A stretch of 64,000 nt of DNA from Opitutia bacterium (GTDB lineage Bacteria > Verrucomicrobiota > Verrucomicrobiia > Opitutales > Opitutaceae), in assembly GCA_016190985.1 (NCBI GenBank), contig JACPPI010000001.1, positions 186,001 through 250,000 of the forward strand, in the 5' to 3' direction. Every line of letters begins with the position of its first letter. Position 1 is the first letter of the stretch. A model generated the notes under the pieces. That model did no database searches and was not told the DNA's origin. It was given only the letters and a program-made list of their open reading frames with translations. Below are positions 4,745 through 56,925 of this stretch, piece by piece. Both the position numbers and the translations under genes were made by a program.

Positions 4745-5743
4745 CTAGCCCTTGGGACGCGGGAACGGCTTGTCGGCCACGAGCGCCGGCATCGGATGCG
4801 AGGGCAACCGGGTGCCCGCCGCCACCGGCCGGCCGCGGAGAAATTCCGCCGCCGGCAGCATCCTGCCGCCCGGCCGCTGGAGCTTCCGCAGCCGGAGCGT
4901 CCCCTGCCCCGTGCCGACCAAGAGACCCTCGGCATCGCTGCCGGCGACCTCCCCGGGGCCGGGTAATTTGTCAATTAATACGTTACAAGCCTCCGCGAGG
5001 CCGAGCTTCACGGCCTGGCCGTTGATTTTCACCGCGCAGCCGGGCCAGGGCATCAGGCCGTTGATGCGGGCGGCGAGCAGAGCGGCCGGTCGCGCGAAAT
5101 CAAGCACACCGTCGGTTTTCTCCAGTTTGCGGCAATACGTCGCGTGGCTGGCGCTCTGGTCGGTGAAGGCCTGCTTGCCGGCGGCAATCGCCGGCAGGCA
5201 CCGCGCCAGCAGCGGCACGCAGGCGGCGGCGAGTTTCGCTCCGACCTCGACGGCCGTGTCGAGCGGAGCGATGCTCACACGCTCCACGCTTGCAACCGGG
5301 CCGGCATCGAGTTGCCGCACCATCCGCATGAGGGTCACGCCGGTCCCGGTGTCGCCGCAGGCGATGGCGGTTTGGATCGGCGACGCGCCGCGATACTTCG
5401 GCAGCACGGAGGTGTGCAGGTTTAGCGTGCCGAGGCGCGGCGTGGCGATCGTATCCGGTTTGAGGATATGCCCGTAAGCCATGACGAGCACTAAGTCGGG
5501 CTCCAACGCGAGCAGCTGAAGCTGCGCGTCCCCATCGAACCTCTCCGGCTGATGCAAGGGAATCCCGCGCTCTTTCACCCAAAGCTTGATTTCGTTGGAT
5601 TGGACCTTGTGCCCGCGCCCGGTGGCCCGGTCCGGCCGGGTGAAGACCGCGACCAACTCCGCGATCTGCCTCCCCTCGCCCGCCAGCCAGTTCAGCGCGG
5701 GCAGCGCGATGGCATCCGAGCCCATGAAGACGATCCTAAGCAT
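4745..5743 (-). CDS. fmt: Methionyl-tRNA formyltransferase
   Basis: A 332-residue Fmt that formylates the initiator Met-tRNA using 10-formyltetrahydrofolate. Visible are the N-terminal MGSDAIALPALNWL, the hydrolase-fold motif VMAYGHILKPD, and the signature LNLHTSVLPKYRGASPIQTAI with catalytic Asn/His. The C-terminal OB-like domain follows (VKINGQAVKLG ... LRLRKLQRPGGRMLPAAEFLRG). The start at 5743 is decided by a strong AGGAGGG ribosome site; a longer frame would run into a repeat. Around Cys253 the coding sequence contains a 23-nt palindrome copy encoding CNVLIDK in the OB-like region, with codons (GTA, TTA) unusual for this genome. Confidence 0.95.
   Translation of the reverse strand: MLRIVFMGSDAIALPALNWLAGEGRQIAELVAVFTRPDRATGRGHKVQSNEIKLWVKERGIPLHQPERFDGDAQLQLLALEPDLVLVMAYGHILKPDTIATPRLGTLNLHTSVLPKYRGASPIQTAIACGDTGTGVTLMRMVRQLDAGPVASVERVSIAPLDTAVEVGAKLAAACVPLLARCLPAIAAGKQAFTDQSASHATYCRKLEKTDGVLDFARPAALLAARINGLMPWPGCAVKINGQAVKLGLAEACNVLIDKLPGPGEVAGSDAEGLLVGTGQGTLRLRKLQRPGGRMLPAAEFLRGRPVAAGTRLPSHPMPALVADKPFPRPKG
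4967..4989. repeat. 23-nt imperfect palindrome, copy B (inside fmt)
   Basis: Begins TTTGTCAATTAATA and ends CGTTACAAG. It is within the C-terminal domain of fmt, read on the minus strand as C-N-V-L-I-D-K without disturbing the frame. Its left half is nearly identical to copy A (shared TTTGTCAATTAWT, then a one-step shift to CGTTACAA). Confidence 0.75.
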
Positions 5744-38199: not shown

Positions 38200-39891
38200 T
38201 CACGTGTATTTCACGACCTCCTCCACGGTCGTTTCGCCGGCCAGGATGGCCGCGAGGCCCGCCTCGCGCAACGTGGTCATGCCCTGCCCGACCGCCTGCT
38301 GCTTCAGCTCGACCAAGGACACGCCCCGCACCACCGCCTCGCGCAGGCTGTCGTTCATGGGCAGGTATTCAAAAAGCCCGATGCGGCCTTTGTAACCTAA
38401 TAGGTTACAAGCAGCACAGCCGACCGCGCGGTGGAAAACCTGGCCCGACTCCTTGGCTGTGTCAGCCCCCAACTGACGTAGCAGCGCTTCGCTCGGCGTA
38501 TAGGCGGCGCGGCAGGCCGGACAGAGCCGCCGCACGAGCCGCTGGGCGAGCACCGCTTCCAGCGTCGAGGCGAGCAGGAAGGGCTCGATGCCCATGTCCA
38601 CCAGGCGCGTGACCGCCGACGGCGCGTCGTTCGTGTGCAGGGTGCTGAGCACGAGGTGGCCGGTGAGCGAGGCCTGGATGGCGATCTGCGCCGTCTCAAG
38701 GTCGCGAATTTCACCGACCATCACGATGTCGGGATCCTGGCGGAGAAAAGTGCGGAGGGCCCGGGCAAAGGTCAGGCCGGCCGCCAGATTCACCGGCACC
38801 TGCATGACGCCGTCGATCTCGTATTCGACCGGATCCTCGACCGTGAGCAGCTTGGAATCGACCGTATTGAGCGCGGTCAGGCAGCTGTAGAGCGTGGTGG
38901 TCTTGCCCGAGCCCGTCGGCCCGGTGACGATGAAAATGCCGTTGGGGCGGTGGATGATCTCCTCGACGCCGGAACGGATTTGGCCGGGCAGGCCGAGCTG
39001 GCGCAGCTCGAGCTGGACCGAGGTCTGGTCGAGGACGCGCAGCACGACGCTCTCGCCGAACTGTGTCGGCAAGGTGGAGACGCGCAGGTCCACGGCGCGG
39101 CCGCCGAGGTTGAGCTTGATGCGGCCGTCCTGCGGGAGGCGGCGCTCGGCGATGTTGAGGTTGGCCAGCACCTTGATGCGCGAGATGATGGGCAGCGCGA
39201 GGTTCTTGGGCGGCGGCGCCATGTCGTAGAGCGAGCCGTCGATCCGGTAGCGGATCTTGAAGTCGTGCTCGAAGGGCTCGAAATGGATGTCGGACGCCTT
39301 GTCCCGGATCGCCTGCGCGAGCACGAGATTGACGAAGCGGATGATGGGGGTCTGCCCGGCGAGCTGCTCGATGTCCTCCTCCGTCAGCACCTCGTCGCCC
39401 GTGTCCTCCATCTGCGCCCGGAGGTCGCCGAGCGCGGCGCCGAGGGAGATTTCCTCCTCCCCATAGTGCTGGCGGATGAGCAACTGGACGCGCTCAGGAT
39501 CGGCGACACTGACACGCACGTCGCGCTCAAGGGCAAAGGTGAGATCGCTCACCAAGTGGGGGTTGAAGGGATCCACTGCGGCCAGCGAGACGGAGAAGCC
39601 GTCGGCGGCGAGCGGCGCCACGCCGTAGGCGCGGGCCATGCCGCCTTCCACGAGCGCCAGGGCGTCGCCCGGCAGCGTCGCGGGAAGCTCGGCCGCGTAG
39701 CCGCAGCCGATGTGCTCCGCCACGGCTTGCAGCAGAGCGGGTTTGTCGATCAATCCGAGGTCGAGCAGCACGACCGCGAGGGGCTTGCCGCTGGCGCGGT
39801 GCTCGTCGAAGGCCGCCTGCAGGGAAGCGGGGTCGACAAGGCGGCGCCCGGCGAGGAGATCGAAGACCGTCTGATCGTGGCCCTCGAACAT
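38200..39891 (-). CDS. GspE/PulE-family motor ATPase (PilB-like), first copy
   Basis: A 563-residue secretion/pilus ATPase. The N-terminal MshEN-like region has DEHRASGKPLAVVLLDLGLIDKP, and the ATPase core has [18 protein letters not shown] (Walker A), DIVMVGEIRDLETAQIA (Walker B/Asp box) and GHLVLSTLHTNDAPSA (His box). A zinc tetra-cysteine follows, LCPAC ... GCAAC. The fourth cysteine (Cys495) and the following NLLGYK are encoded by the 23-nt palindrome (copy C), where homologues have CxGTGY. It powers pilus extension with PilC and sits between pilC and pilT. Confidence 0.92.
   Translation of the reverse strand: MFEGHDQTVFDLLAGRRLVDPASLQAAFDEHRASGKPLAVVLLDLGLIDKPALLQAVAEHIGCGYAAELPATLPGDALALVEGGMARAYGVAPLAADGFSVSLAAVDPFNPHLVSDLTFALERDVRVSVADPERVQLLIRQHYGEEEISLGAALGDLRAQMEDTGDEVLTEEDIEQLAGQTPIIRFVNLVLAQAIRDKASDIHFEPFEHDFKIRYRIDGSLYDMAPPPKNLALPIISRIKVLANLNIAERRLPQDGRIKLNLGGRAVDLRVSTLPTQFGESVVLRVLDQTSVQLELRQLGLPGQIRSGVEEIIHRPNGIFIVTGPTGSGKTTTLYSCLTALNTVDSKLLTVEDPVEYEIDGVMQVPVNLAAGLTFARALRTFLRQDPDIVMVGEIRDLETAQIAIQASLTGHLVLSTLHTNDAPSAVTRLVDMGIEPFLLASTLEAVLAQRLVRRLCPACRAAYTPSEALLRQLGADTAKESGQVFHRAVGCAACNLLGYKGRIGLFEYLPMNDSLREAVVRGVSLVELKQQAVGQGMTTLREAGLAAILAGETTVEEVVKYT
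38389..38411. repeat. 23-nt palindrome, copy C (inside PilB-like gene)
   Basis: Begins TTTGTAACCTAATA and ends GGTTACAAG; 10-bp arms on either side of one central base are perfect. On the minus strand it codes C-N-L-L-G-Y-K through codons TGT AAC CTA TTA GGT TAC AAA. CTA, TTA and GGT are rare in this genome. Confidence 0.8.
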
Positions 39892-55002: not shown

Positions 55003-55034
55003 CTCAGGACTGATCCAGCGGCGAGTGCACGCCG
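55001..55034. repeat. Partial direct copy of the integrase gene 3' end (left)
   Basis: Starts GACTCA and continues to CCAGCGGCGAGTGCACGCCG, where the last 20 bp match 55605-55624 (inside the integrase) at 19 of 20 positions; both copies also begin GACTCA a few bases earlier. It lies directly after the DUF5069-like stop. Confidence 0.75.
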
Positions 55035-55102
55035 CGGTTTTACCCTTTCGTAGCCTTGCGACGAAGCGTGCAGCACGCGACGAGAGAATCCCCCTTGACG
55101 TC

Positions 55103-55125
55103 TTTGTAGTCTATTAGATGACAAA
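55103..55125. repeat. 23-nt palindrome, copy D
   Basis: Begins TTTGTAGTCTATTAG and ends ATGACAAA. It is an inverted twin of copy E, from which it is separated by 14 bp, so D and E together form a longer cruciform-capable structure at the 3' side of the small HTH gene. Confidence 0.85.
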
Positions 55126-55139
55126 TGCTGCCTCGGCCG

Positions 55140-55162
55140 TTTGTCATTTAATAGACTACAAA
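55140..55162. repeat. 23-nt palindrome, copy E
   Basis: Begins TTTGTCATTTAATAG and ends ACTACAAA. Its 23 nt are nearly the reverse complement of D and nearly identical to F. Confidence 0.85.
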
Positions 55163-55165
55163 GAC

Positions 55166-55195
55166 CTGCCCGCCTCAGACCTGCCCGCCTCAGAC
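55166..55195. repeat. Tandem 15-bp duplication at the HTH gene 3' end
   Basis: Two copies of CTGCCCGCCTCAGAC in a row. The HTH gene's stop codon lies in the second copy; the first is just past palindrome E. Confidence 0.8.
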
Positions 55196-55558
55196 CAGCT
55201 CGCGCCCCTGCTGACGGGCGCACAGCCACGCGAGCAGGAGCAACGTGCGCTCGGCATCGAGGCAGCCGGCCTGCGCCTTCAGGCAGACATGCAGCCGCTG
55301 GCGAGGAATTCCAAGGATACGCGCCAGGTGCACCTTGCTGCCGCGCTTGCGGAGCAGAGGCGCCACCTGTCTGACCAGTTCGTTCCACAGCGGAGTGTCC
55401 GCTCCGGGTTGCAAGGTAAGTCCGCGCGTGGGCGGACGTCGTTTTAGTTTTCCGGCCGCACGTCTGGCGGATTCGGCGGCCGCGTCGGTCAACCACTCGA
55501 TAATCTCGACATAGGGCCGGAGGCGGGGATGCAGTGGGTTCGGACGCACGTAGTTCAT
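55190..55558 (-). CDS. Small XRE-like helix-turn-helix protein bracketed by 23-nt palindromes
   Basis: Encodes 122 residues. The N-terminal half is MNYVRPNPLHPRLRPYVEII then a basic stretch (ARRAAGKLKRRPPTRG). The C-terminal part is a likely DNA-binding domain: GSKVHLARILGIPRQRLHVC and DAERTLLLLAWLCARQQG resemble XRE/lambda-repressor HTHs (x-LA-x-LGI-x-RQ-x-L). No enzymatic motifs, no transposase signature. Palindrome F ends just 7 bp upstream of the chosen ATG 55558, so F may be its operator; D and E lie at the other side. An alternative start would add part of F. The unit sits directly after the integrase gene on the same strand. Confidence 0.6.
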   Translation of the reverse strand: MNYVRPNPLHPRLRPYVEIIEWLTDAAAESARRAAGKLKRRPPTRGLTLQPGADTPLWNELVRQVAPLLRKRGSKVHLARILGIPRQRLHVCLKAQAGCLDAERTLLLLAWLCARQQGRELV

Positions 55559-55564
55559 GGGATG

Positions 55565-55587
55565 TTTGTCATCTATTAGACTACAAA
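55565..55587. repeat. 23-nt palindrome, copy F (between integrase and HTH gene)
   Basis: Begins TTTGTCATCTATTAG and ends ACTACAAA. It fills most of the 32-bp gap between the integrase stop (55591) and the HTH start (55558). Position suggests autoregulation by the HTH protein or an end of a mobile unit. Confidence 0.85.
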
Positions 55588-55590
55588 GAC

Positions 55591-56874
55591 TCAACCCGAT
55601 GTGTCCAGCGGCGAGCGCACGCCGAGGCCCGGCTTTTGCATGACGTGGGTGTAGATCTGCGTGGTCTCCACGCTGGCGTGGCCGAGCAGCTCCTGCGCCG
55701 TCCTGATGTCGGCCCCGCCCTCCAGCAGATGCGTCGCGAAACTGTGTCGCAGCACATGGGGCGTCACGCGTTTGTCTATCCTCGCCGCCGTTCCCGCCGC
55801 ACGGATATTGTTTTGAAAAGTGCTGTCGACCGTATGATGCCGCCTCCGCACGCCTGACTGCGGATCAATGCTGGTTTCACGCGAGGGGAAGACCCATTGC
55901 CACTCCCATCGTTCACCCGCCCGGGGATATTTTCGGGCGAGACTTTCCGGCAACCAGACTCCGGGCAGGCCCGCCGCCCGGTCCGCCGCGAATATTTTGC
56001 GCAACCCCTCCACATGCTCACGCAGTGGCGCCACCAACCGCTCCGGAAGCACCGTGGCCCGGTCTTTGTCGCCCTTGCCGCCCCGCACCAGCAGCTGTCG
56101 TCGCGCCAGATCGAGGTCTTTCACCCGCAGCCGCAGCAACTCCATCAGGCGCAATCCGCTCCCATACATGAGTTCTCCCATCAGGCGGTTGTCACCGGAC
56201 AGCCGGGTGCATTCGTCGCGGCTCAACACGGTCGGCACCCTTTGACGCTCGCGCGCGTAGGTGAAATGAATGGAGCCCAACTGCCGGCCCAGCGCCTCCT
56301 GCATCAGAAACACCAGGGCGTTAAGCGCCTGTTTCTGGGTTGAGGGTGCGACCCGCTGCCGCACCGCGAGGTCGGTGAGAAAGCTTTGCACCTCTCGCTC
56401 CGTCGCCCGGTATGGCGAGGCCGGCGCGATGAACCGGGCGAACCTTTCCGCCCATTCCAGATACGTCGTCTCTGTCCGGGCCAGGAAATGACGCGTGCGC
56501 ACCGCCACGACCAGGGCCTGCCGCCAATCCGCCCCGCCGGGGCTGGACAGCCCGGACGGGCGCGACCGGAGGGCCGTCGGTGGCGGCACCCGCGCGGAGG
56601 GTTGTCGGACCTGCAGTTTTGCCGTTTTGAAAAACCACCGCAGCGCCAGCCGCGGCGAACGATCGCCGCTCCGGGCTTGCGCTTCCGCCGACTCGATGTA
56701 GGTCTTGGCTCCAGCAATGGACGCCGGCACATGCAGGATTTTGCAGTGGCGCAAAAACCCCAGAATATCGCGGGTCATGCGGGCTTTGTCGGCCGGGGTA
56801 AACGCAGCCACGGCCAGTGACTCTTTCCACTCGCGAAAAGTAACGGGTGCCCGCTCGTCAGACGGTTGTGGCAT
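55591..56874 (-). CDS. intI: Integron-type tyrosine recombinase (IntI-like)
   Basis: Encodes 427 residues. Catalytic residues: arginine in LMYGSGLRLMELLRLRVKD, then HxxR and tyrosine in TPHVLRHSFATHLL and GHASVETTQIYTHV. The diagnostic integron-integrase patch between motifs is present, VWLPESLARKYPRAGERW and on to WVFPS, which other tyrosine recombinases lack. The N-terminus carries about 80 residues beyond a minimal IntI (TFREWKESLAVAAFTPADKARM). It should recombine attI with attC sites of gene cassettes. ATG 56874 (MPQPSDERAP) is chosen; a longer frame passes through an inverted repeat. Its last codons are duplicated at 55001. Confidence 0.9.
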   Translation of the reverse strand: MPQPSDERAPVTFREWKESLAVAAFTPADKARMTRDILGFLRHCKILHVPASIAGAKTYIESAEAQARSGDRSPRLALRWFFKTAKLQVRQPSARVPPPTALRSRPSGLSSPGGADWRQALVVAVRTRHFLARTETTYLEWAERFARFIAPASPYRATEREVQSFLTDLAVRQRVAPSTQKQALNALVFLMQEALGRQLGSIHFTYARERQRVPTVLSRDECTRLSGDNRLMGELMYGSGLRLMELLRLRVKDLDLARRQLLVRGGKGDKDRATVLPERLVAPLREHVEGLRKIFAADRAAGLPGVWLPESLARKYPRAGERWEWQWVFPSRETSIDPQSGVRRRHHTVDSTFQNNIRAAGTAARIDKRVTPHVLRHSFATHLLEGGADIRTAQELLGHASVETTQIYTHVMQKPGLGVRSPLDTSG

Positions 56875-56881
56875 GGCACGA

Positions 56882-56925
56882 GTAAGGCTTTTACCGGACA
56901 CCCCCACAACCGCAAAAAGCCTTAC
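56882..56925. promoter_or_regulatory. Inverted repeat upstream of intI
   Basis: GTAAGGCTTTT and AAAAGCCTTAC pair perfectly over 11 bp around a 22-nt spacer, starting 7 bp upstream of the intI start codon. In integrons this region holds the integrase promoter and attI; the pair could be a regulator site or part of attI. Confidence 0.5.

Follow-up and report, generated by a model that had tools for sequence, protein, structure and literature searches.

The window, 64,000 nucleotides of a contig from an Opitutia bacterium, contains a compact unit of 491 bp (55100..55590, no strand assigned), bounded at both ends by 26-nt inverted repeats of 96% identity. Inside it lies the gene for a small helix-turn-helix (HTH) protein, probably of the XRE/Cro-like type (55190..55558, minus strand), which encodes 122 aa counted from the ATG, with a longer TTG-started form of 134 aa also open. 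The predicted recognition helix of the protein spans approximately residues 85-93 (PRQRLHVCL). Three palindromes, which differ from one 23-mer at 0, 1 and 1 positions (no match in 100 shuffles), accompany the gene: D (55103..55125, plus strand), the outer copy 3' of the gene and the left end of the unit; E (55140..55162, minus strand), the inner copy on the same side; and F (55565..55587, minus strand), a candidate operator located 6 nt upstream of the ATG and forming the right end of the unit. The first-pass annotation had described this gene with palindromes on both sides, and its coordinates and 23-mer matches were confirmed, as was its account of D and E as a near-perfect inverted pair 14 nt apart (26 nt, 96%). 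D also forms an inverted pair with F around the gene, again of 26 nt and 96%. Together, D and E make up a REPIN-like inverted doublet which is predicted to fold, as RNA, into a strong hairpin (-37 kcal/mol, z -9.8, 0/200 shuffles). No sigma-70-like promoter was found between 54950 and 55800, and two matches to known RNA families both fell far below gathering. The annotation had also placed the 23-mer at three distant positions in the window, of which we recovered fewer: one clear occurrence, a solo palindrome of another subfamily (TTTGTAACCTAATAGGTTACAAG, 38389..38411, plus strand) inside a called gene and with the same core as at the HTH copy at C15:18168, and one match to the palindrome pattern with one mismatch (4970-4986). 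Between 55040 and 55095 of the window a REP-like hairpin of the GTAG type can be made out by eye (GTAGCCTTGCGACGAAG); according to PMC3733652, repeats of the GTAG type are frequent in O. terrae.

Directly upstream of the HTH gene, and on the same strand, is an integron integrase gene (55591..56907, minus strand; TIGR02249, 369.9 bits against a cut-off of 265). A 24-nt copy of its 3' end (92%) is found on the far side of the unit (55014..55037, minus strand), the other copy being at 55604-55627, and a similar duplication is visible by eye at locus L190 of the relative G010. An integrase-like ORF in this position and orientation occurs at 9/88 loci, a count which includes the window and L062, a locus of the same genome (C5:276269-276580), and some of these ORFs are fragments; at 79/88 loci none was detected by phmmer at E 1e-5. 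With the integrase present at just 9/88 loci, we conclude that it is not needed.

The HTH protein family

The genome from which the window derives (the own genome) carries 8 strong homologues of the HTH protein (11 matches at E 1 or less). A protein search found the gene in 64/189 relatives, all 64 belonging to a single family, f1, which is probably Opitutaceae judging by the taxa that carry relatives. An 83-row profile recovered the gene in 60/130 members of f1, and in a phylum-wide draw gave a match in 20/387 genomes; three of these matches were weak and came from outside f1 (G350, G371 and G226), and they were rejected as relatives, being short, generic HTH segments. The taxa with homologues are Lacunisphaera, Opitutus, Oleiharenicola, Candidatus Didemnitutus, Rariglobus and unplaced Opitutia or Verrucomicrobia MAGs (80 records kept of 104). 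One homologue (L379) comes from a MAG labelled Akkermansiaceae.

Searched against Pfam at E 0.01, the 83 members produced weak matches only, to YdaS (27), HTH_3 (11), HTH_8 (3) and a NUMOD-like DNA-endonuclease domain (3/83, best E 0.003); the last may hint at an enzymatic link. Absent from the families matched at this threshold was the Y1/HUH domain. The AlphaFold2 model is all-helical with a mean pLDDT of 82. Foldseek related the model to XRE-type chains at E 0.8 or more, which is weak, and VIA placed HNF-1A at the top (Z 7.8) and XRE-type chains at Z 5-7.1, all under Z 8, a level at which the tool cautions that the similarity is possibly just a common arrangement. No relative with a solved structure was identified by sequence under E 0.06. 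The protein is probably a small DNA-binding protein of XRE/Cro-like type, with modest support from the modelled fold. An origin in phages or plasmids was rejected, as phage and plasmid collections held no match; in viral contigs, one peptide pattern led to 3 stretches, none of them a relative. In PHROGs, weak matches to 10 families were obtained, the best at E 2e-06 and most of them to regulators or repressors of transcription, and 1/83 members weakly matched a DNA transposition protein. Membership of a defence system was likewise rejected, with no PADLOC match for 4 proteins.

Palindromes beside the gene and across genomes

We examined 88 of 139 listed loci (8 from the own genome and 80 of the relatives' 131 matches, mostly the best-scoring ones), searching for palindromes within 250 bp on each side of the gene and requiring the best pair to agree at 18 or more of 23 positions. 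Matched palindromes were present on both sides of 68/88 copies, while the same threshold was reached by 18% of 3483 mismatched upstream/downstream pairings, 0/88 shuffled flanks and 0/83 displaced flanks. Further to that, among 80 loci taken from the records with relatives, of which 36 were new by protein and 34 had both flanks, 23/34 were flanked in the same way. That homologues are never flanked by palindromes, a finding named beforehand as fatal to the first-pass proposal, is clearly contradicted by both counts. The half-sites vary between copies (GTCAC, GTAAC, GTAGT, GTCAA, GTAAT, TTCAC and others), yet they match between left and right of the same gene. The upstream palindrome frequently ends a few nt ahead of the ATG, a second palindrome lies 3' of the stop codon in most copies examined, and in several the stop codon itself is overlapped by the downstream palindrome (offset -7). 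An inverted arrangement fits better in 38/67 scorable pairs and a direct one in 29. Among the 20/88 copies without a matched pair, L082, L135, L150 and L153 still enclose the gene in an inverted repeat of lower symmetry.

Palindromes are also dispersed away from the gene. With 2 mismatches allowed, the own genome gives 34 forward and 31 reverse matches, counts that overlap as many places match both strands, and 0 in the backward control. Across 120 f1 genomes, the number of palindromes (generic pattern) rises with the number of HTH genes (Spearman 0.79), which is the association that had been proposed as a check on the 23-mer. The median is 18 in the 64 gene-bearing genomes and 0 in the 56 without the gene, and fewer than 3 palindromes are present in 7 of the gene-bearing ones. 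Outside f1, 69 genomes yield 4 matches in total, with 0 to 3 per genome in the backward control. Palindrome-rich genomes lacking the gene, the other observation held to speak against the proposal, do occur as exceptions: 4 or more palindromes are found in 9/56 gene-free genomes, as against 57/64 with the gene. G036 has 22 palindromes, G113 has 12, and G024 and G078 have 9 each, and the HTH gene was found in these four neither by protein search nor by profile. In a set of 73 f1 genomes the palindrome count correlates with Y1 matches at only 0.17 (p 0.16) and with the HTH gene at 0.79; G002, G006, G008, G014, G019, G037, G043 and G066 combine the HTH gene and 4-42 palindromes with no Y1 match, some of the Y1-free genomes being incomplete (69-84%). 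Repeats driven by a RAYT were rejected on these two grounds. The 17-mer core of a resident gene's flanks recurs in 29/35 palindromes of G086 and 41/47 of G109 (gene flanks included).

In 268 kb of the own genome, consisting of loci chosen for palindromes or HTH genes and annotated with a simple codon-usage gene caller, 25/29 sites lie outside called genes in sequence of which 87% of positions are coding. These 29 sites, selected by a filter that misses less symmetric palindromes, including the window's own three, comprise 7 between convergent genes, 18 between codirectional genes and 4 within called genes; with the 9 beside HTH genes set aside, the figures are 0 divergent, 5 convergent, 11 codirectional and 4 in genes. 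In G109, 6/38 sites are intragenic (71% expected) and 6 fall at locus edges. None of the 29 own sites lies between divergent genes, and 6/38 in G109 do.

Doublets and arrays are part of the pattern. Among 41 close pairs at HTH loci, partly dependent since some loci are near-identical orthologues, 20 are spaced 36-48 bp, with 27 inverted and 14 direct; the solo loci of G109 hold only 4 close pairs, 2 of them inverted. Locus L259 of G086 (1240-1660) contains palindrome pairs arrayed in tandem, each unit measuring ~90-105 bp by eye, where L273 of G109 has a single copy. Outside the 23-mer, the complementarity of the arms exceeds the distant baseline in the own genome and at HTH loci, and less so in G109. 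At C11:107447 of the own genome (L071), a solo palindrome sits within a longer dyad of 49 nt, and some solos have copy-specific outer arms. A palindrome doublet at L247 (1208-1270) is located inside a called gene, in a region that, from its motif, is probably the rlmN linker. It was rejected as a clean insertion and points to a replacement: G198 has other DNA at this place, in the form of a different GC-rich hairpin, and the more distant G046 has a doublet.

At 11/38 solo loci of G109 the palindrome is, by eye, at the centre of a shared longer element with inverted ends (10 loci by an exact 11-nt piece). The copy at L248 is a 111-bp insert with CTA on both sides, and G086 has an empty site there with CTA once. 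We conclude from this that a MITE of 111 bp, which duplicates 3 bp of its target, carries the palindrome along in genus g27, the empty site coming from the one copy at L248. A search for the MITE ends beside HTH genes gave one match with 3 mismatches, which is chance-like; as the HTH genes lack these ends, the g27 MITE leaves the palindromes of other genomes unexplained. Of 39 G109 loci, 21 (one doubtful) have a counterpart in G086, and two of the 18 without were followed; where G086 has an orthologous stretch, the G109 site is shared in most cases. For the own solo palindrome at C11:107447 no empty site was obtained among 19 orthologous loci, none of which holds a palindrome of the generic pattern, and divergence is too great for borders to be drawn in the 10 gaps that can be read from both sides.

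The HTH gene occupies syntenic places in several species pairs (picked for matching flanks), and in the loci compared the gene unit alone showed neither a target duplication nor an empty site. A self-contained mobile unit, as first proposed, is thus not borne out. At the place orthologous to the window, G010 (L190) has the unit together with the integrase, and G011, G013, G004, G018 and G001 have neither; in these five a DUF5069 gene is followed by the gene found at window 57491. In G015 (L191) the same place holds a solo palindrome of another subfamily adjoining an integrase 3' remnant, and the stretch read there contains no HTH gene. Recurrent neighbour ORFs, as far as we inspected them, are shared syntenic surroundings, the integrase (9/88 loci) excepted.

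Covariation of recognition helix and half-site

Residues in the predicted recognition helix vary together with bases of the half-site. In 91 matched elements, whose residue/base counts are inflated by relatedness, R or K at residue 86 goes with G at half-site base 3 in 86/87 and P86 goes with T in 4/4; residue 88 is R in 82/83 elements where base 7 is not A, and is not R in 8/8 where base 7 is A. Residue 91 is acidic in 45/59 elements with C at base 7 versus 5/23 with T. Distances between proteins and between half-sites are correlated across 68 elements (Mantel r 0.39), the largest value in 2000 permutations being 0.15. Among sister pairs, picked without reference to the helix, residues 86, 88, 90 or 91 differ in 13/14 with unlike half-sites versus 13/28 with equal ones (p 0.006), an effect reached by 36/1000 control column sets and partly circular, as these four positions were picked after the Mantel analysis. 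Two syntenic pairs from different species illustrate the pattern: E91 versus L changes together with base 7 C versus T (L154/L157), and Q90 versus H together with mixed GTAAC/GTCAC half-sites (L114/L138). A counter-example is L092/L097, where the half-sites differ and the four residues are identical. In this covariation the palindromes act as would be expected of sites cognate to the HTH protein. Of the first-pass proposal, binding of the palindromes by the protein gains from it, and autoregulation at F stays conjectural.

Candidate explanations and known systems

Comparison between copies and genomes establishes the flanking of the gene by matched palindromes, their dispersal as singlets and doublets, and the covariation of helix and half-site. 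We suggest, with a probability of about 0.62, that the HTH protein and its cognate flanking and scattered palindromes form a REP-like repeat system in which the resident protein is a binding protein and not a transposase. A dimer of the HTH protein would bind each palindrome, and would repress its own promoter at the upstream copy (F in the window); by tying the ends together or shielding hairpins, it could allow the repeats to persist and be copied. Having no enzyme of their own, the repeats would be moved by borrowed means, of which the 111-bp MITE of g27 may be an example, and at least sometimes the gene would stay at its inherited locus as protein and palindromes change in concert. It may be, although we offer this only tentatively, that the repeat system is driven by the binding protein alone, bound palindromes being copied via gene conversion or borrowed transposons and each paralogue founding its own repeat family. 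PRDM9 and its sites chase each other's sequence, and by analogy the HTH protein and its palindromes could possibly do the same under such a drive.

A true mobile element, in which the 491-bp unit moves whole, its palindromes serving as terminal inverted repeats and the enzyme being provided in trans, would account for the 26-nt inverted ends, the better fit of the inverted orientation in 38/67 pairs, the several copies per genome at different places and the patchy distribution, as well as for the place orthologous to the window, where unit and integrase are both present in G010 and both absent in five genomes. We consider it rather unlikely, given that several copies are syntenic between species, that no target duplication or empty site was seen for the unit alone, that inverted pairs outnumber direct ones only slightly (38 to 29) and that recurrent neighbour ORFs are syntenic surroundings except for the integrase at 9/88. 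That same integrase, directly upstream in the window and among those 9/88 loci, with its 3' end duplicated across the unit, brings to mind an integron cassette, with the HTH gene captured beside the integrase and the palindromes serving as recombination sites. This is very improbable: 79/88 loci have no integrase-like ORF, and attC core boxes were not seen by eye in the palindromes.

The palindromes could instead be sites of ordinary regulators, an orphan XRE repressor having an upstream operator and a second, downstream site, with the solo palindromes as the operators of its regulon. The XRE-like fold and weak HTH_3/YdaS matches agree with this, as does the upstream palindrome often lying a few nt before the ATG. 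Helix/half-site covariation is typical of regulator families, among them GntR, IclR and MerR, and the 6/38 divergent sites of G109 make promoter sites possible there. Such a regulon is nonetheless unlikely, somewhat more so than a mobile unit: 0/29 own-genome palindromes lie between divergent genes, palindromes occur as doublets, in a tandem array and in the middle of a MITE, and a second palindrome follows the stop codon in most copies examined. Operators of the BlaI/MecI type had been a first idea from the half-site and were dropped once the flanking gene proved to be of an XRE-like family. The least probable reading is a chromosome-organising protein. MatP, with matS, and SlmA are proteins of that kind with dispersed palindromic sites, and here too dispersed dyads are seemingly read by one small protein; against this stand the number of copies, which can reach 8 in one genome and differ in their sites, the patchy presence (64/120 f1 genomes) and the copies in an array and in MITEs.

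No HTH-palindrome system of this kind was found described in the open-licence PMC literature, in keeping with the first-pass remark that no described system matches. If the REP-like reading holds, a repeat family with a resident gene lacking a transposase domain raises the question of whether a binding protein can maintain or spread repeats, and PMC3733652 leaves open certain REP families (CGTC) that apparently have no dedicated transposase. The natural variation is also rich enough for a recognition code to be read, with dozens of protein-site pairs showing matched changes.

In its predicted fold (weak scores) and its palindrome before the start codon, the system resembles XRE/Cro/CI autoregulators, including the controller (C) proteins of restriction-modification systems, from which it differs in the second palindrome after the gene, the copy-specific match on both sides and the dispersed copies of the site. 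The likeness to MITEs is confined to genus g27, where an element of 111 bp, inverted at its ends and flanked by a 3-bp duplication, has the palindrome at its centre, whereas the other sites inspected, in the own genome and at HTH flanks, are the dyad alone without outer ends. The closest parallel is REP/REPIN repeats with their RAYT (TnpA-REP) as presented in PMC3116915, PMC8266576 and PMC3733652: short, mostly extragenic palindromes that occur singly, in inverted doublets or in clusters, a gene with repeats of its own on either side, and repeats and protein that co-evolve. A layout of this kind without a RAYT, already pointed out in the first-pass annotation, held up in the flanked gene, singlets, doublets and array and in the absence of a Y1/HUH Pfam match. 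Unlike in REP-RAYT, the protein encoded here is XRE-like and has no Y1 match, the number of palindromes is unrelated to that of Y1 genes, and the palindromes are near-perfect dyads, most with a TAWTA-like centre, beside which no obvious GTAG/CGTC tag was seen by eye at the sites inspected. As no sign of the defining transposase turned up in the gene, we do not file the system under REP-RAYT, even though it would work alike; if repeats are indeed driven by the binding protein alone, the system would amount to a selfish repeat with a non-catalytic driver.
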